From NCBI RefSeq assembly GCF_018310535.1, contig NZ_CP074102.1, positions 8,308,001-8,372,000 of the forward strand: 64,000 nt of DNA, given 5' to 3'. Below the pieces are notes generated by a model, which saw only the letters and a program-made list of their open reading frames with translations, had not been told where the DNA came from and did no database searches. The DNA comes from Streptomyces mirabilis. Its GTDB lineage: Bacteria > Actinomycetota > Actinomycetes > Streptomycetales > Streptomycetaceae. This document shows positions 1 through 7,090 of this stretch, piece by piece (the first letter of the stretch is position 1; each line of letters opens with the position of its first letter). The translations under genes and the position numbers were made by a program.

Positions 1-766
1 CGGCTCACACGTCGGACGCCTCAGCCGCAGGATGACGACTACAACAGGGAAGCAAAAGGTCGGCCGCATACGCCGTCATTCATCGGGGCTTGACCTGCGA
101 ATCAAGACTCAAACGCAACGGTGTTGGCCGCGAGATGTCGGCGATCGAGACTGCCACTTCCTCATCCGGTACTTGGCTGCCGGCTCACCCGTGCGGGCGG
201 TAAGGCATACAGGCCCGCCTGGCCGTAACGCGGTTGCCGGGCCCGCTGTCCCGTCTCCCGGCCCGGGACACCTCGTTCGGGTCACCGAGGATCTGCCACT
301 GCCTTAGGTCGTCAAGGCGGCACAAGGCGGCTCGGACGGTTTCCGCGGCCCGGCGCGCACGCCCGGCGCCCCGCAGCCCGCAGCCCGCAGGGGATTCAGC
401 CGTCGTCGCTGTCGCGCGTGAGCTGGTTCAAAGCGTCTTAAAGCGTCTGCTGCCGGGCTGGGCGATGAGCCGGTCTGTCGGGGCTGGGCAAGACGGCTGA
501 AATCGGCCACTCTCGTGAGATCTCGGCATCCGCGCAACGCTCACTGGCTGAGGCATTCCGGGCTGTCTCGGGCTTCTGAAGATCGCCGTCGACACGCGAC
601 GAGCCGCCACGCCGAGGAGCGTTTCGACTTCGTTCTGTGAGAGTGCGAGGTCACCCGGGAAGGGCTTGGCCGAGGGGGCTTTGAGGTCGTTTCAGGGCCG
701 GATCTGATCAACGTTTGGGGGCTAGGGTGAGGTCCTTCCTGCGACTGCTCCGGAGGTGCCCTCCCG
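1..766. other. No recognisable gene upstream of dnaE
   Basis: Short overlapping reading frames occur on both strands, but none has a recognisable protein family, a good ribosome binding site or consistent third-position GC. The composition is less even than in the flanking genes, which suits decayed accessory DNA. The last 15 bases before the polymerase gene hold its Shine-Dalgarno sequence (GGAGGT at 752-757). Confidence 0.4.
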
Positions 767-3700
767 GTGACGGATTCCTTTGTTCACCTGCACAATCACA
801 CCGAATATTCGATGCTCGACGGCGCGCAGAAGCTCAAGCCGATGTTCGCCGAGGTCGAGCGTCAGGGCATGCCGGCCGTCGCCATGAGCGACCACGGCAA
901 CATGTTCGGTGCGTACGAGTTCCATCAGGTGTCCAAGGGTGTCGACGGCGTCAAGCCGATCATCGGGATCGAGGCCTACGTCGCGCCGTCCTCGCGCCGG
1001 AATCGCAAGCAGGAGTTCTGGGGTCCGGGCGGCCAGCGGGCGATGTCGGACGACGGTGAGGGCTCGAAGGACGTCTCCGGCGGTGGCCGGTTCACGCATA
1101 TGACGATGTGGGCGCAGAACGTCCAGGGTCTGAAGAACCTCTTCCACCTGTCGACCGAGGCCAGCTACACCGGTCAGTTCCCCGCGGGCAAGCCGCGGAT
1201 GGACATGGAGCTGATCAGCGAGCAGGCAGGCGGCATCATCGCCACGACGGGCTGCCCGTCCGGGGCGATCCAGACGCGGCTGCGGCTGAACCAGTACGAC
1301 GAGGCCCGTGAAGTCGCTGCCGCCTACCAGGACATCTTCGGCAAGGAGAGTTACTTCCTGGAGCTGATGGACCATGGGCTGTCCATCGAGAAGGACGTCC
1401 GTGACGGGCTGTTGCGGCTGGCCAAGGATCTGAACATTCCGCTGCTGGCCACGAACGACGCGCACTATGTGCACGAGGACCAGGCCGATGCGCATGACAA
1501 CCTGCTGTGTATCGGGGTGGGCAAGAACAAGGACGACCCGAAGCGGTTCCGGTTCCAGGGCAGCGGCTATTACCTCAAGACCGCCGCCGAGATGCGGGAG
1601 TTGTTTGCGGAGCTGCCGGAGGCCTGCAACAACACCCTTCTGATCGCCGAGCGCATCGAGTCCTACGACTCCGTCTTCGAGAACGTCGACGAGATGCCGC
1701 AGTACCCGGACGTGCCGGAGGGGGAGACGCAGGAGTCCTGGCTGCGCAAGGAATGCCTCAAGGGCCTGGCCATGCGCTACGGCGACCCGATCCCGGCCGA
1801 GGTCATGGAGCGCTTCGAGACCGAGATGACGGTCATCGGCCCCATGGGCTTCTCCTCCTACTTCCTCGTGGTCGCCGACATCTGCCGCCACGCCCGCGAC
1901 AACAAAATCCCGGTCGGGCCCGGCCGCGGGTCGGCCACCGGCTCGATCGTCGCGTACGCGACCCGCATCACCGAGCTGTGCCCGCTCGAGCACGGCCTGC
2001 TCTTCGAACGCTTTTTGAACCCTGAGCGCATCAACCCGCCGGATGTCGACCTCGACTTCGACGACCGCCAGCGTGACGCCATGGTCCGCTACGTCACCGA
2101 GAAGTACGGCGACGAGTACACCGCCATGGTCAACACCTTCGGCAAGATCAAAGCCAAGAACGCGATCAAGGACTCGTCCCGCATCCTCGGCTACCCCTTC
2201 CAGCACGGCGAGCGCATCACCAAGGCGCTCCCGCCGGACATCATGGGCAAGTCGATCCCGCTGGACGGCATCTTCGACTCCGCGCACCCGCGCTACGGCG
2301 AGGCCGGCGAAATCCGGACGATGTACGAGAACGAGCCGGAGGTGAAGAAGGTCATCGACACCGCCAAGGGTGTCGAAGGCCTGACCCGCGGCACCGGTGT
2401 GCACGCGGCCGCGGTCATCCTGTCCAAGACGAAGCTGACCGAGCGCATCCCGCTGCACATGCGCGCCAAGGACGGCGTCAAGATCACCGGATTTGACTAC
2501 CCCAGCTGCGAAAACATGGGGCTGGTCAAGATGGACTTCCTGGGCCTGCGCAACCTGGGCGTGATCGACCACGCGCTGACGAACATCCGTGAGAACCGCG
2601 GCGTCAAGCTGGCCACCGTCGACCCGGGCAACGGCGACACCAGCGTCACCGTGATCCCGCTGGATGACAAGAAGACCTTCGAGCTTCTGGGCCGCGGCGA
2701 CACGTTCGGCGTGTTCCAGCTCGACGGCGGCGGCATGCGCGCGCTGCTGAAACTGATGGAACCCTCCCGCTTCGAGGACATCGCGGCCGCCCTCGCCCTG
2801 TACCGGCCCGGCCCGATGGCTGCCAACGCGCACACCAACTACGCGCTGCGGCAAAACGGCAAGCAGGACCCGGACCCGATCCACCCCGAGCTGAAGGAAG
2901 TCCTGGACCCGATCCTGGGCTCCACCCACCACCTGCTCATCTTCCAAGAGCAGATCATGGCCATCGCCCGGACCTTGGCCGGCTACACGCTCGGTGGCGC
3001 CGACATGCTGCGCCGCGCGATGGGCAAGAAGAAGCCCGAGGTGCTGGCCGCCGAGTGGCAGAAGTTCCACGACGGCATGGCCGACAACGACTACTCGGAA
3101 GAGTCCATCAAGGCGATCTGGGACGTCATGCTCCCGTTCTCCGGCTACGCGTTCAACAAGTCCCACACCGCAGGCTACGGACTCGTCTCCTACTGGACCG
3201 CCTACCTCAAGGCCAACTACCCGGCCGAGTACATGGCGGCCCTGCTCACCTCTGTCGGTGACGACAAGGACAAGGCCGGCATCTACCTCGCCGATGCCCG
3301 CAAGCTCGGCGTCACCGTCCTCGCGCCGGATGTGAACGAGTCGCTCGCCGAGTTCGCGGCCGTCGGCGACGACGTCCGCTTCGGACTGTTGTCAGTACGC
3401 AACGTGGGCGACAACGTCATCGAATCGATCATCGCGGCCCGCAAGTCCAAGGGGAAGTTCACTTCGTTCTCCGACTTCCTCGACAAGGTCGACCTGCCCG
3501 CGCTGAACAAGCGGGCCGTGGAATCCCTCATCAGATCCGGCGCCTTCGACTCCCTCGGACACACCCGCAAGGGACTGTCCGCCGCCCACGAGAGCGCCAT
3601 CGATGCAGTCGTCCCGCTCAAGAAGGCAGCCGCCTACGGACAGGACGATCTCTTCGCCGGCCTCGGCGATGCAGCCAGCGACGACAGCTTCAGCCTGGAT

Positions 3701-4360
3701 GTGCCGGTCAGCGACGACGAATGGCCCCGCAAGCAACTGCTGTCCATCGAACGCGAGATGCTCGGCATGTACGTCTCCGCGCACCCGCTGGACGGCACCG
3801 AGCACATCCTGTCCACCAACCGCGACACCACCATCGTGGACCTGTTGGCCTCAGGACGTACCGAAGGCGTGGTCCGCCTCTCCGGCCTGATCACCAGCGT
3901 CCAGCCCAAGATGACCAAACAAGGCAACGCCTGGGCCATTGTCAACCTCGCCGACCGTGACGGAACGATCGAGGTCCTCTTCTTCCCCGCCACCTACCAG
4001 ATGGTCGCCGCCGCCCTGGTGGAGGACAGCGTCATCACCGTGCAAGGCCGCGTCAACGACCGCGACGGCGCCATCAGCATCTTCGGGCAGGAACTGAAGG
4101 TCCTCGACGTGACCTCCGCCGAACGCGACGGCGCAGCCCCCGTCCAGCTTCGGCTGCCCTATCACCGCATCAACGAGCTGTGCATCAACGAACTCAAACG
4201 CATCATGGGTGCCCACCCCGGCCAGAATCCCGTTCAACTCGCGGTGCGCGGCCCGCAGAAGACCGTCGTCTACCAGCTTCCCTCGCTGGTGAACGCCGCT
4301 ACCATCGCCTCAGACATCAAGGGATCCTTTGGCCCGGAGGCGTGGCAAGGGGTGGCGTGA
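767..4360 (+). CDS. dnaE: DNA polymerase III alpha subunit paralogue (DnaE type)
   Basis: Replicative-type C-family polymerase, 1197 aa. The GTG start is 10 nt after GGAGGT. An N-terminal PHP domain begins HLHNHTEYSMLDG and keeps DHGN, GIEAY and TNDAHY. The palm carries PDVDLDFDD (about residues 425-433) and KMDFLGLRNLG (about 588-598), so all three catalytic aspartates are present. A QDDLF clamp-binding peptide lies near residue 959, followed by an OB-fold. Residues around the PHP and fingers differ from the usual Streptomyces housekeeping DnaE as I remember it, which begins with HLHVHTQYSLLDG. The IS-rich setting and the coupled zinc-ribbon gene also suggest a second copy rather than the essential one. 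It is not the ImuB-linked DnaE2 type by context. Catalytic activity is expected; the biological role is inferred only. Confidence 0.9.
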   Translation: MTDSFVHLHNHTEYSMLDGAQKLKPMFAEVERQGMPAVAMSDHGNMFGAYEFHQVSKGVDGVKPIIGIEAYVAPSSRRNRKQEFWGPGGQRAMSDDGEGSKDVSGGGRFTHMTMWAQNVQGLKNLFHLSTEASYTGQFPAGKPRMDMELISEQAGGIIATTGCPSGAIQTRLRLNQYDEAREVAAAYQDIFGKESYFLELMDHGLSIEKDVRDGLLRLAKDLNIPLLATNDAHYVHEDQADAHDNLLCIGVGKNKDDPKRFRFQGSGYYLKTAAEMRELFAELPEACNNTLLIAERIESYDSVFENVDEMPQYPDVPEGETQESWLRKECLKGLAMRYGDPIPAEVMERFETEMTVIGPMGFSSYFLVVADICRHARDNKIPVGPGRGSATGSIVAYATRITELCPLEHGLLFERFLNPERINPPDVDLDFDDRQRDAMVRYVTEKYGDEYTAMVNTFGKIKAKNAIKDSSRILGYPFQHGERITKALPPDIMGKSIPLDGIFDSAHPRYGEAGEIRTMYENEPEVKKVIDTAKGVEGLTRGTGVHAAAVILSKTKLTERIPLHMRAKDGVKITGFDYPSCENMGLVKMDFLGLRNLGVIDHALTNIRENRGVKLATVDPGNGDTSVTVIPLDDKKTFELLGRGDTFGVFQLDGGGMRALLKLMEPSRFEDIAAALALYRPGPMAANAHTNYALRQNGKQDPDPIHPELKEVLDPILGSTHHLLIFQEQIMAIARTLAGYTLGGADMLRRAMGKKKPEVLAAEWQKFHDGMADNDYSEESIKAIWDVMLPFSGYAFNKSHTAGYGLVSYWTAYLKANYPAEYMAALLTSVGDDKDKAGIYLADARKLGVTVLAPDVNESLAEFAAVGDDVRFGLLSVRNVGDNVIESIIAARKSKGKFTSFSDFLDKVDLPALNKRAVESLIRSGAFDSLGHTRKGLSAAHESAIDAVVPLKKAAAYGQDDLFAGLGDAASDDSFSLDVPVSDDEWPRKQLLSIEREMLGMYVSAHPLDGTEHILSTNRDTTIVDLLASGRTEGVVRLSGLITSVQPKMTKQGNAWAIVNLADRDGTIEVLFFPATYQMVAAALVEDSVITVQGRVNDRDGAISIFGQELKVLDVTSAERDGAAPVQLRLPYHRINELCINELKRIMGAHPGQNPVQLAVRGPQKTVVYQLPSLVNAATIASDIKGSFGPEAWQGVA

Positions 4361-4731
4361 GCGAGGAAGCCGGTACTGGCGAGCCGCACGACTTAGAAGA
4401 GATCGTCCTCATCGTCGACGTAACACCACGTTGTCCCAGCTGCAGCCGGCCGACGGTACTGCTGGCCCGCTATCCCCACAGCTGGGGCAACAACAGGGGC
4501 GGCACCGTCAGCGGCTTCAGAGAAGCCGTGCTGTGCCGATTCTGCGACCGCGATGGTCCGGCCGCCGCACCGCTGATCGCCCTCTTTGAAGAGGATGGTT
4601 CCTTCCCTGCCGACCAACTCGATGTTTTCGGGCCACTCGCCGAGGTGTGGGTCGAAAACCGCCGGAACACCGCCGTCGACGAGGGACTCCTCAACGAGCA
4701 GGCGCGGCTCTGGCGAGGCGGTGAGTTCTAG
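4357..4731 (+). CDS. Small zinc-ribbon protein coupled to dnaE (DUF6300-like)
   Basis: 124-residue protein with a GTG start that overlaps the polymerase stop codon (GTGA), so translation is probably coupled. Two CxxC pairs, CPSC near residue 24 and CRFC near residue 60, would bind one zinc ion. The segment LLARYPHSW and the acidic C-terminal half resemble the Streptomyces DUF6300 family as I recall it; its function is unknown. Co-translation with a DnaE paralogue suggests a partner or regulatory role in the same process, but nothing in the sequence proves contact. No signal peptide or membrane segment. Confidence 0.7.
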   Translation: MSEEAGTGEPHDLEEIVLIVDVTPRCPSCSRPTVLLARYPHSWGNNRGGTVSGFREAVLCRFCDRDGPAAAPLIALFEEDGSFPADQLDVFGPLAEVWVENRRNTAVDEGLLNEQARLWRGGEF

Positions 4732-4868
4732 CTGGGGAGTCGTCATCGGAACCCGGCCCGGAACACTCCTACGGAACAGCGCTGACCTCGGTCCGCTTCC
4801 CCGCGCCGGGCGTCCCGGTCATCGATCCCTGACGGAACACCCTGACACGCCTGTCTACAGAAAAGGAT

Positions 4869-4898
4869 TTGAGCGAGGCGGTGCCCCGCCCCTACTGT
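4869..4898 (+). promoter_or_regulatory. Candidate promoter of leader-GNAT-infA operon
   Basis: TTGAGC and TACTGT are separated by 18 bp, a fair fit to a housekeeping sigma promoter. It lies about 40 bp before a short leader ORF with a strong ribosome binding site. It is judged by eye only. Confidence 0.4.
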
Positions 4899-4937
4899 CG
4901 TGGTGGATCGTGAAGTCGTCGTATGGAGGTGAGACCC

Positions 4938-4991
4938 GTGAACACAGTTACCCATGGGTGCTCCCTCAACCCGTCACGGTCCGGCGGCTGA
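4938..4991 (+). CDS. Leader peptide of acetyltransferase-IF-1 operon
   Basis: 17-codon ORF, GTG start, encoding MNTVTHGCSLNPSRSGG. It is preceded 5 nt upstream by GGAGGTGA (4925-4932), a stronger Shine-Dalgarno than that of most genes in the window. It ends 55 bp before the acetyltransferase start, with a hairpin between them that reaches the next ribosome binding site. This layout is that of translational attenuators (erm-type leaders), in which a stalled ribosome on the leader opens the downstream gene. No homologue is recognised; the function is inferred from layout alone. Confidence 0.45.
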   Translation: MNTVTHGCSLNPSRSGG

Positions 4992-5003
4992 AGTTCGGTG
5001 TCG

Positions 5004-5040
5004 CCAGGAGCGCCTGAGATCGAGGCACTCCTGGAAGGAG
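5004..5040 (+). promoter_or_regulatory. Hairpin overlapping the GNAT ribosome binding site
   Basis: CCAGGAG (5004-5010) pairs with CTCCTGG (5028-5034), with an inner GCCT/AGGC stem. The 3' arm runs into the Shine-Dalgarno GGAAGGAG (5033-5040). In the folded state the ribosome binding site is partly hidden. Together with the leader ORF this suggests translational control of the acetyltransferase and IF-1. Confidence 0.45.
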
Positions 5041-5046
5041 ACTCCG

Positions 5047-5841
5047 ATGAACACAAAGCCTTTCACATCTGGCCTGAGCGAGAACGCGGTGATGATCACG
5101 CGCGTCGCGGACAGGCAATGGCATGCACTGGATGACGACCTGGTGGTCGGCCGCGGGCATGCGGAGCACCGGCACGACGGACGCTTGTTCGTCAGCATCG
5201 ACGCCTGGCACGACGCCACCTTCGACCGGCTCGCCGAGGTGATGCTGGCGCAACTGCCGGCGCCGCTGTACACGGTGGTCGACGAAGCTGACGTCGAGCT
5301 GACGGCCGGCTGGCGGCGGGCCGGTTTCACGATCCGGCGCCGCGAGTGGGAGTACGTCGTGCCGACCGACCCGCGGGTCACAGGGCTCGGCGAAGTGCTG
5401 CCGCCTTCGGGCGTGACGATCGTGCCCGCCGGTCATGCGGACGAGTGTCTGCTGCGGGCGGTGGACCGCGCGATCCGTGACGAAGTCGAGGCGACCGCCG
5501 GGTGGTGGCAGTCGATGCCCGCGGAGGTAATTCCCCGGCCCGAAGACGACACCATCGTCGACCCGTCGAAGTACGCGGTGGCCGCGGCGCCGGACCGCTA
5601 CCTGGGGCTGATCCGGGTAGCGACGGTGAACCGGCCGCGCATCGGGCTGGTCGCGGTCCGGGCCGGCGAGCAGCGTCGCGGCATCGCGCGGGCGCTGCTG
5701 GCCCACGCGCTGGGGACGCAGCACCGCTCCGGGTTCGCCGCGGCCTATGCCGAAGTCCACGAGTCCAACCAAGCAGCCTCGGCGCTGTTCGAGAGCATCG
5801 GCGCCCGGCCGATGAGCAGCAACCTGGAGCTGGTGCGATGA
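5047..5841 (+). CDS. GNAT-family N-acetyltransferase
   Basis: 264-residue cytoplasmic acetyl-CoA-dependent acyltransferase. The C-terminal half (about 195-260) has the GNAT signature: [20 protein letters not shown] supplies the Q/R-x-x-G-x-G/A-type pyrophosphate loop, followed by [20 protein letters not shown]. The N-terminal half (about 10-110) may be a second, degenerate GNAT fold, as in two-domain aminoglycoside or ribosomal-protein acetyltransferases. The ATG is 6 nt after GGAAGGAG. Its last codons overlap the IF-1 start (ATGA), so the two are co-translated. The substrate cannot be read from the sequence. Pairing with a translation factor behind a leader ORF suggests a drug, ribosomal or translation-related target (inference). 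Confidence 0.8.
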
Positions 5842-6062
5842 CGAAGCACAAGAACGTCATCGAAGTCGAGGGCAAGGTCGTCGAGTGCCTGCGCAGCGCC
5901 ATGTTCACCGTGGAGCTGGAGAACGGCCACCAGGTGCTCGCGCACATCAGCGGGAAGATCCGCAAGAACTACATCAAGATCATGCTGGAAGACCGGGTAC
6001 TGGTGGAGCTCCCGCCGTACGACCTGACGCGCGGCCGGATCGTGTTCCGGTACCGGAACTAG
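5838..6062 (+). CDS. infA: Translation initiation factor IF-1 paralogue
   Basis: 74-residue S1/OB-fold protein. [20 protein letters not shown], the following [13 protein letters not shown] and the ending GRIVFRY are the full IF-1 pattern. IF-1 binds the 30S A-site region during initiation and can act as an RNA chaperone. The start codon overlaps the acetyltransferase stop. The housekeeping infA of Streptomyces lies in the ribosomal protein region (map-infA-rpmJ). None of those genes is here, so this is a second copy, probably expressed with the acetyltransferase under special conditions. Confidence 0.9.
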
Positions 6063-6095
6063 CGGCGGTCGGCACCTTCCGCGGTAGCTGATCCT

Positions 6096-6132
6096 GGGGC
6101 CCCGGTCACGGCGTTTCCGTGACCGGGGCCCC
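6096..6132 (+). terminator. Terminator after infA
   Basis: Perfect 16-bp stem, GGGGCCCCGGTCACGG against its complement, around a CGTTT loop, 33 bp after the infA stop. It closes the leader-GNAT-infA unit. Confidence 0.8.
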
Positions 6133-6164
6133 GATGATGGCTCGCACGGCCACGGCGGCCACCG

Positions 6165-6380
6165 CTTTAGCCGCCGCCGGCAGGTCTGGCCCGAGCCGAA
6201 CCCCAGCTCCAGGGGGAGCAGTTGTGAGGCGATGTGGTTGTGCAGCACGTGCAGGATGCCCTACAGGCACAGCCGGTCCGGCACCGGCCGCGGGCCGGGT
6301 GCCTTCTCGGGCCAGGGCGGCAGCAGCGGCTCGATCAGCGCCCACAGATCACCGAACACCTTCCACGGCCGGGTAGTCAC
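6165..6380 (-). pseudogene. IS5-family transposase N-terminal fragment
   Basis: Reading from GTG at 6380 gives TRPWKVFGDLWALIEPLLPP and then PEKAPGPRPVPDRLCL. An in-frame TAG follows, then GILHVLHNHIASQLLPLELG and GSGQTCRRRLKRW. This is the N-terminal region of a DUF4096/IS5-type transposase. The premature stop and the absence of any catalytic part show it is a relic. Confidence 0.75.
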
Positions 6381-6500
6381 ACCATCCCGAACGGTCGAAT
6401 CGTCACACCGGACACGGCCGAACAGGGCCGTTCAACAAGATCGTGTTACGAGCTCAAAGAATCAGTACTCGACTTCGCCATAACCGCTTAGCCGAAGTAT

Positions 6501-6995
6501 GTGTTGAGGGCGGATAATTGCCCGCTCGGTGATGCTGGATACTGTTCCGCTTCCGGAAACGGTAACCAGACGACCCTCTGCCCCATATTTCTTCACGACG
6601 GGCTCGGATTGAGACTTCCAGACGTCCCACCGTTGCATTACCACGTGGCGGGTCTCGTCTTCGCACGTGACCGCAGCGGCGGTGAGGGAGCGCCCACCGC
6701 CTGGGTGACGCTCCCGCCCGGTACCACCGCCGTCGGCCATTCGGTCAACTGCGCCCCGTGGCAGGAGAACAACCCGGCCGCCGAGGCGAAAGGGCCGTAC
6801 GTCTGCAGCCTGCCGGGCATCGTCGTGCCCAAGGGGCAGGTCACCAACTTCTCCTTGACCGTCCGGGTCGACGACGTGGTCACGCATGCCAAGGGCGGCG
6901 TCCAGCTGGTCTGGGGCCCGGACCCGGCCGACTCCCACCGGCCCGCTTTCGATCCGGACAGCCGCAACGACTCCGCCGTCCTCACCGTGAACTGA
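6501..6995 (+). pseudogene. 3' remnant of an exported beta-sandwich protein
   Basis: The last ~130 codons have good codon bias and read like the end of a secreted repeat domain: LPPGTTAVGHSVNCAPW, then VPKGQVTNFSLTVRVDDVV and finally SRNDSAVLTVN. That pattern, with two cysteines and a terminal N-D-S-A-x-L-T-V strand, is common in extracellular DUF11-like domains. No signal peptide or convincing start is present, and the first 30 codons look non-coding. I treat it as the truncated 3' end of a surface-protein gene cut by the adjacent IS debris. A short intact gene is possible but less likely. Confidence 0.45.
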
Positions 6996-7090
6996 GCCAC
7001 GGCCCACGGGCGGTGCCGGGCTGCTTCACCCCGTCATGGCCGAACGACCTCGGTGCGAGCCGTATGTCCTGCGCCTTTCGCTTCAGCCGG

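Follow-up and report, generated by a model that had tools for sequence, protein, structure and literature searches.

A short leader found in front of five kinds of genes in actinobacteria probably turns these genes on, as judged from its sequence, when ribosomes jam at the start of the message. One copy lies in the stretch of 64,000 nucleotides of Streptomyces mirabilis DNA analyzed here (the window), part of a 9.6-Mb genome, where it precedes a gene encoding a GNAT-domain protein and a second gene encoding IF-1 (infA). On balance we take this GNAT-infA unit (4860–6132) to be a translation-stress operon that would combine a WblC-type promoter with a four-arm switch responding to ribosome position, a reading in which our confidence is reasonable rather than high. 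The elements concerned are as follows.

4860–4898, + strand: WblC/WhiB7-type promoter, 12 of 13 positions in agreement with the published consensus
4860–4865, + strand: WblC box GAAAAG, followed by 3 bp (GAT) up to the −35 element
4869–4874, + strand: −35 element TTGAGC, followed by 18 bp up to the −10 element
4893–4898, + strand: −10 element TACTGT, the start site being expected near 4905–4906
4907–4913, + strand: arm 0, AUCGUGA, at the expected 5' end of the mRNA (consensus fold)
4925–4931, + strand: GGAGGTG, Shine-Dalgarno sequence of the leader, 5' of its ORF (read directly)
4925–4940, + strand: arm 1, from the leader Shine-Dalgarno sequence through the start codon GTG (4938–4940)
4938–4991, + strand: leader ORF from GTG to TGA, 17 codons plus the stop codon TGA, VNTVTHGCSLNPSRSGG (read directly)
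4956–4965, + strand: arm 2, GGGUGCUCCC, within the leader ORF, partner of arm 1 or arm 3
4974–4980, + strand: arm 0', UCACGGU, inside the leader ORF, which may pair with arm 0 (helix P0)
4996–5014, + strand: arm 3, 3' of the leader stop, with outer CGGUGUC (4996–5002) and inner GGAGCGCC (5007–5014)
5024–5031, + strand: inner part of arm 4, GGCACUCC, which pairs with inner arm 3
5033–5040, + strand: Shine-Dalgarno sequence of the GNAT gene, GGAAGGAG, within arm 4 (5024–5046)
5040–5046, + strand: outer part of arm 4, GACUCCG, ending at the GNAT ATG
5047–5841, + strand: GNAT-domain protein of 264 residues (domain profile matches)
5838–6062, + strand: second IF-1 (infA) of 74 residues (TIGR00008 match)
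6096–6111 and 6117–6132, + strand: perfect 16-bp inverted repeat 3' of infA, without a T run (read directly)

Much of this layout had been proposed in the initial annotation and is borne out. The 17-codon leader ORF with a strong ribosome site is present behind GGAGGTG, the hairpin (4996–5046) encloses the next Shine-Dalgarno sequence and reaches the GNAT ATG, and the reading frames of the acetyltransferase and of IF-1 share an ATGA overlap (5838–5841), both family assignments being confirmed by profile scores. The 16-bp element was described there as a perfect terminator; the inverted repeat is real, but it lacks a T run and does not appear in the list of the terminator scan, and it possibly marks the 3' end of the unit. 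Upstream of the unit, 767–4360 encodes a full-length DnaE, the second one of the main replicative type in this genome; the other (G000:C1:6498586-6502101) is 56% identical to it, and there are two more distant relatives. A DUF6300 gene (PF19817, 4357–4731) shares a few bases with the 3' end of dnaE.

The promoter-like boxes of the initial annotation were not detected as a promoter by a generic sigma-70 scan of the unit, but they do correspond to the WblC consensus GAAAWY-3-TKGMNN-16..19-TANNNT as given in the available text of PMC7157823. WblC box, −35 and −10 elements stand at the published spacing, so that the unit carries the sequence mark of the WblC/WhiB7 regulon, whose targets include GNATs and translation proteins (PMC7157823, main text). 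Scores of at least 11 out of 13 were obtained for 50 of 53 GNAT-infA loci, compared with 4 of 1060 shuffled sequences. Considered by leader class, the promoter accompanies 52/56 GNAT leaders, 15/15 leaders of rifampin monooxygenase genes (rox) and 42/66 leaders of alpha/beta hydrolase genes (abh), and none of the 13 PrmC or 8 patatin leaders, the frequency in 1580 shuffles being 0.4%. The putative control of the unit by WblC is thus suggested by a motif.

The GNAT protein scores 33.9 bits against Acetyltransf_1 (gathering score 20.7), which places it in the GNAT superfamily, the acetyltransferase domain occupying only the C-terminal third (residues 166–258). With the RimI model TIGR01575 it reaches 35.9 bits, under the cut-off of 86.4, and its closest solved relatives by sequence are ribosomal-protein-alanine acetyltransferases (best E 2e-9). 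The second IF-1 scores 111 bits against TIGR00008 (cut-off 61.15), as expected of a member of the IF-1 family, and is 69% identical to the product of the other infA of the same genome. A search of 295 genomes of the genus for the GNAT gene gave any match in 72. From this search 56 loci were taken and 53 counted, leaving out L056 and L057 (33% identity, IF-1 not found) and L058 (a fragment). All 53 encode a near full-length GNAT (59–100% identity), and infA follows in every one of them, the alignments touching or lying at most 124 nt apart; the pairing for which a search in relatives had been proposed is therefore constant among these orthologues. IF-1 was likewise found in 46/46 further GNAT loci with a leader, partly from the same genomes, which include Streptosporangium subroseum, Amycolatopsis acidicola, A. 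echigonensis, Streptacidiphilus jeojiense and a Nocardia metagenome-assembled genome. Each of 15 GNAT-bearing genomes examined contains exactly two infA copies. When 16 second IF-1 proteins are aligned with 16 housekeeping ones, columns 20 and 22 hold Cys and Arg in all second copies and Ser and Pro in all housekeeping copies, and at column 46 Lys replaces Met in 15 of the 16 second copies. In its sequence, then, the second IF-1 is an intact and distinct IF-1. No downstream IF-1 or GNAT match was obtained for the non-GNAT leaders searched; neither protein is found, for example, at the hydrolase locus L106.

The distribution of the leader was analyzed with two covariance models, R1, built from the 53 GNAT-infA leaders, and the broader R2, built from 68 diverse leaders. 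In the window's own genome R1 recognizes two further places, in front of an abh-class gene (L060) and of a PrmC-like gene (L061), giving three copies in total; a weak R2 match in the same genome has an E-value of 0.6. R1 matches occur in 221 of 293 genomes of the order and in 78 of 296 genomes (31 of 114 genera) of the class, R2 matches in 89 of 296 genomes (33 of 114 genera) of the class; in a sample of the phylum, R2 matched 15 of 296 genomes, all 15 inside the class. The genes 3' of 105 R1 loci encode alpha/beta hydrolases (64), FAD monooxygenases (15), PrmC-like proteins (13), patatin-like proteins (8) and GNATs (3), two being left unassigned at this step; L194 and L128 were placed in the hydrolase class by the leader alone. 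One monooxygenase scored in full reaches 846.8 with the rifampin monooxygenase equivalog model (cut-off 800), and one PrmC-like protein 438.8 with TIGR03704 (cut-off 248.8). The hydrolase class is defined more loosely: alpha/beta hydrolase models match one of three proteins tried and none match the other two, the remaining proteins having been put in the class by similarity. At several rox loci (among L092–L104, L116 and L117) the monooxygenase has an extra N-terminus resembling the start of leader-bearing hydrolases, as if the leader and the 5' end of the gene had moved together.

A pattern scan of named genomes recovered at least 118 leader stretches. Among the 118 matches listed, whose genomes we take to be all actinobacterial, 67 precede hydrolase, 18 monooxygenase, 13 GNAT, 10 PrmC-like and 4 patatin genes, while in 6 the sequence ends within 204 bases of the leader; 7 are identical over 130 nt to leaders obtained before, so the sets overlap. 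Weaker R2 loci also precede the same gene kinds (36/37, of which 33 PrmC). One leader-like R2 match (L378), which lacks a nearby downstream ORF of 80 codons or more, is possibly a decayed copy. Leader and foldable RNA thus appear to constitute one family in front of five unrelated gene kinds in actinobacteria. The unit had been proposed to sense slowed translation; leader, hairpin and WblC-type promoter agree with this proposal, but the arrangement is not peculiar to GNAT-infA, since four other gene kinds share it. A known RNA family was rejected as an explanation: no Rfam 15 family matches the leader, either in the window (searched up to E 1) or at six other loci (up to E 0.1), or at gathering scores in a search of the whole window, the weak matches obtained lying off the leader (three in 4700–6300, one among the six other loci). 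A phage origin was rejected as well, the exact leader pattern occurring in 0 stretches of viral contigs. The literature searched, which leaves most subscription papers outside its coverage, contained neither the leader nor a leader-controlled IF-1, in keeping with the view that such an IF-1 is not known to have been described. For S. lividans, eight amino-acid leader peptides are reported in the available text of PMC8079986, and no peptide shown in it resembles this leader.

All 53 GNAT-infA loci possess a leader ORF behind GGAGGTG, of 17 codons in 52 (the window included) and of 19 codons in one. Across all classes, 154 of 158 leaders close at 14–21 codons; for the two alternative frames the corresponding numbers are 3 and 19, and the +1 frame is of limited use as a control because 126 leaders meet a stop in it at once through A/GTGA. 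Similarly, 114 of the 118 matches listed from the pattern scan close at 14–19 codons. The counts for the arms leave out the four leaders outside 14–21 codons (n = 154). Arm 2 begins at offset 19 in 81 leaders, 18 in 51, 16 in 14, 20 in 6, 17 in 1 and 21 in 1, and consequently falls in each of the three reading frames; two GNAT clades, both with 17 codons, differ in the frame that runs through it, and their peptides differ beyond codon 4. Conserved residues are limited to about the first four (M/V/I-N-A/T-V), the third positions being free. The conservation of leader codons anticipated in the initial annotation therefore holds for frame and length, but not beyond approximately codon 4. Because arm 2 occurs in all three frames, what appears to be kept is the RNA and the length of the ORF rather than the peptide past codon 4 or so.

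The PrmC leaders differ in their start codons. Among 55 distinct leaders, which are related and do not represent 55 independent events, the start is ATT in 33, ATC in 17, ATG in 2, GTT in 2 and GTC in 1, that is, AUU or AUC in 50. All 55 frames close at 14–26 codons (48 of them at 17–21), compared with 8 and 4 for the two alternative frames, and 6.2% of shuffled sequences close at 17–21 codons. We infer that translation of these leaders starts at AUU or AUC. Separately, a subgroup of abh leaders (L171, L179, L180, L183, L184, L189, L190 and L194) has an ATC start and an ORF of 14–15 codons whose stop abuts arm 3, L180 and L184 being without that stop; L171 and L179 have a low WblC promoter score.

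The predicted RNA has the four-arm topology of erm leaders: helix 1:2 would mask the ribosome site of the leader, helix 3:4 that of the GNAT gene, and helix 2:3 excludes both. In the window, the hairpin 4996–5046 has a folding energy of −26.0 kcal/mol (z −3.1, matched by 1 of 200 shuffles) and the whole leader 4906–5049 a z-score of −2.3 (matched by 5 of 200). Its own minimum-energy fold contains 3:4, has 1:2 in a neighbouring register and misses P0. The compound leader pattern, defined after the relatives had been seen, has a single match in the window and none in 100 shuffled sequences. In the 154 leaders, which are related and not independent and whose arms were located by best match to the consensus, a procedure favouring complementarity, 1177/1232 cells (95.5%) are paired in 1:2, 1331/1386 (96.0%) in 2:3 and 1122/1386 (81.0%) in inner 3:4, the control combination 2:4 giving 840/1386 (60.6%); in GNAT leaders alone, 2:3 is paired in 423/424 cells. 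In 138/154 leaders 3:4 leaves the sixth base of arm 3 without a partner, whereas in 150/154 that base pairs with arm 2. Since in most leaders this base pairs only with arm 2, it speaks for selection on 2:3.

Covariation was examined by comparing each arm with its own and with swapped partners. On 73 non-redundant leaders the own partner is preferred for 1:2 (z −4.0) and 3:4 (z −6.3), no such signal being obtained for P0 (z −1.1) or for 2:3 (z +1.7), the latter because both arms hardly vary; the control combination arm 0':arm 3 shows a mild signal (z −2.0, p 0.027). For the outer 3:4 helix the overall result is z −7.3, and z is −4.4 when swaps stay within a class (65 non-redundant leaders of 140). 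It is chiefly the abh leaders that produce the within-class signal; in rox and prmC own and swapped partners are about equal, and in patatin (2 leaders) the swapped ones fit better. In an alignment of 68 diverse leaders, itself fitted to the structure, 87 cells of the OFF fold have changes on both sides, compared with 25 in shuffled alignments and at most 28 when slid, and P0 has both-side changes in 5 of 5 pairs. With the GNAT alignment alone, 3 pairs show both-side changes (3.1 in shuffles), and 17 cells do so (6.5 in shuffles). The compensating changes called for in the hairpin are thus found, less clearly when GNAT leaders are taken by themselves, and they support 3:4.

In the mechanism we propose, 1:2 and 3:4 would form on a leader free of ribosomes, and GNAT-infA would be off. 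A ribosome parked at codons 1–2 would open 1:2 and leave arm 2 (+19 to +28) bare, which could then capture arm 3 before the transcription of arm 4 is complete; with 2:3 formed, the GNAT ribosome site would stay open and IF-1 would be translated by way of the ATGA overlap. A ribosome farther along the leader would cover arm 2 and allow 3:4 to close, so that ribosome position would decide and the peptide would hardly matter past its first residues. Since arm 1 comprises the ribosome site and the start codon of the leader itself, the informative ribosome position would be codons 1–2; in ARE5 leaders of S. coelicolor, LSAP drugs are described to arrest ribosomes on the start codons of uORFs (available text of PMC12421871). 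Promoter and leader together would act as an AND gate, with transcription when WblC is up and translation when ribosomes jam early.

Folding calculations restrict the form such a switch may take. At equilibrium, 3:4 beats 2:3 in GNAT, rox and, on average, abh leaders, also when a ribosome occupies the start codon, the mean unpairing of the ribosome-binding site of the gene going from 0.41 to 0.42; PrmC leaders are the nearest to switching, 2:3 rising from 1.5 to 6.5 pairs. Mean energies are −25.3 kcal/mol for the 3:4 hairpin and −16.2 kcal/mol for the 2:3 duplex. A pure equilibrium switch is not supported, as 3:4 dominates once the whole RNA is present, and because 3:4 is the more stable helix the switch would have to be kinetic. 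When transcripts ending just before arm 4 were folded, a ribosome at codon 1 led to a 2:3 helix of 5 bp or more in 95 of 154 leaders and one at codon 2 in 89; the number was 11 at codon 3, 11 without ribosome, and 0 at codons 4, 5, 6, 7, 9 and 11; for GNAT leaders only, the numbers are 19/56 (codon 1) and 25/56 (codon 2). As this staged folding favours codons 1–2, the mechanism is probably a kinetic switch that senses a ribosome there and makes use of all four core arms.

The strongest rival to this switch places the decisive ribosome at the leader stop codon: a ribosome terminating there would keep 3:4 open, translation of GNAT would be coupled to that of the leader, and slow termination would raise expression. 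Indeed, a ribosome at the stop cuts 3:4 from 12.6 to 6.7 pairs, the largest average effect tested, ORF length and the distance from stop to arm 3 are held in narrow limits (the stop lies 7–14 nt before inner arm 3 in 139/154 leaders), and one target is a PrmC-like methyltransferase, related to release-factor methyltransferases. It leaves, however, the near-invariant 2:3 complementarity and the sixth base of arm 3 without a reason, mean unpairing of the ribosome-binding site rises only from 0.41 to 0.47, and prmC leaders lose more of 3:4 with a ribosome at the start codon than at the stop; we hold this explanation to be unlikely, though worth keeping in mind. The erm-like stalling by a drug-specific nascent peptide inside the ORF, which follows from the analogy in the initial annotation when it is taken literally, is improbable. 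Typical features of erm leaders are present, namely a leader ORF with its ribosome-binding site, a masking hairpin with compensatory change and an exclusive 2:3 helix, and the M/V-N-A/T-V start with free third positions could be read as the beginning of such a peptide; a conserved stalling peptide was not found in the leader, though, arm 2 being read in three frames and the codons varying, with clades that differ in peptide after codon 4, and no 2:3 helix forms at the six ribosome positions between codons 4 and 11. A constitutive structure or mRNA-stability element, the leader ORF only keeping the 5' end loaded with ribosomes, would fit the one dominant fold at equilibrium, but it is hard to reconcile with an exclusive 2:3 helix kept as well as 1:2 and better than inner 3:4, and we give it little credence. 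Transcription attenuation, as described for the Streptomyces stress genes wblC and are5sc (PMC12421871, available text), is very improbable here, since no terminator-like site was found on the + strand in 4000–7000 and hairpin 3:4 reaches right up to the GNAT start codon.

If the kinetic switch at codons 1–2 is correct, the leader would be a general, largely peptide-independent ribosome sensor in the antibiotic response of soil actinobacteria, and one leader would join a family of drug-inactivating enzymes with translation proteins (IF-1 and a PrmC relative). IF-1 and IF-3 govern the fidelity of initiation, and a conserved group of leader ORFs apparently starting at AUU or AUC would offer a direct test bed for it. 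A wider reading, which we put forward tentatively and consider rather doubtful, is that the PrmC branch and the other classes form an undescribed RNA family of Actinomycetes, which senses a ribosome standing on the first codons of an ORF that is only a dummy and thereby reports arrested or hesitant initiation to unrelated protection genes; the PrmC branch, through AUU/AUC, would report initiation fidelity, and the second IF-1 would be both output of the sensor and feedback on it.

Ribosome-targeting drugs induce erm- and cat-type genes through short leader ORFs. The present leader resembles these translational attenuators (such as ermC) in its short ORF, in helices 1:2 and 3:4 masking ribosome sites with 2:3 as the alternative, and in the presumed control of translation, no terminator having been found here. 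In contrast to erm and cat, arm 1 here consists of the ribosome site and start codon of the leader itself, the peptide is not conserved, and one element is common to five gene kinds in 33 of 114 genera. The infC gene (IF3) is autoregulated through an AUU start codon in dependence on initiation fidelity, and the non-canonical AUU start is shared with the PrmC leaders, but here AUU or AUC would open a leader ORF in front of a PrmC-like gene. With the WblC/WhiB7 regulon the unit shares the promoter form and the presence of GNATs and translation proteins among the targets (PMC7157823, main text); unlike that regulon, whose description in the same main text has 0 occurrences of infA, the leader also occurs without a WblC promoter (prmC, patatin). 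The uORF attenuators of wblC, are5sc and tiaA are similar in belonging to Streptomyces, in responding to the same stress and in LSAP stalling at start codons, and the control of tiaA appears to be translational; they are set apart by the uORFs of 3 (are5scL1) and 9 (tiaA) residues and by the terminator/antiterminator folds in their description (PMC12421871, available text). In topology, then, the element follows erm; it departs from erm in where the sensing ribosome stands, in being indifferent to the peptide, in the range of its targets and in the AUU/AUC starts.
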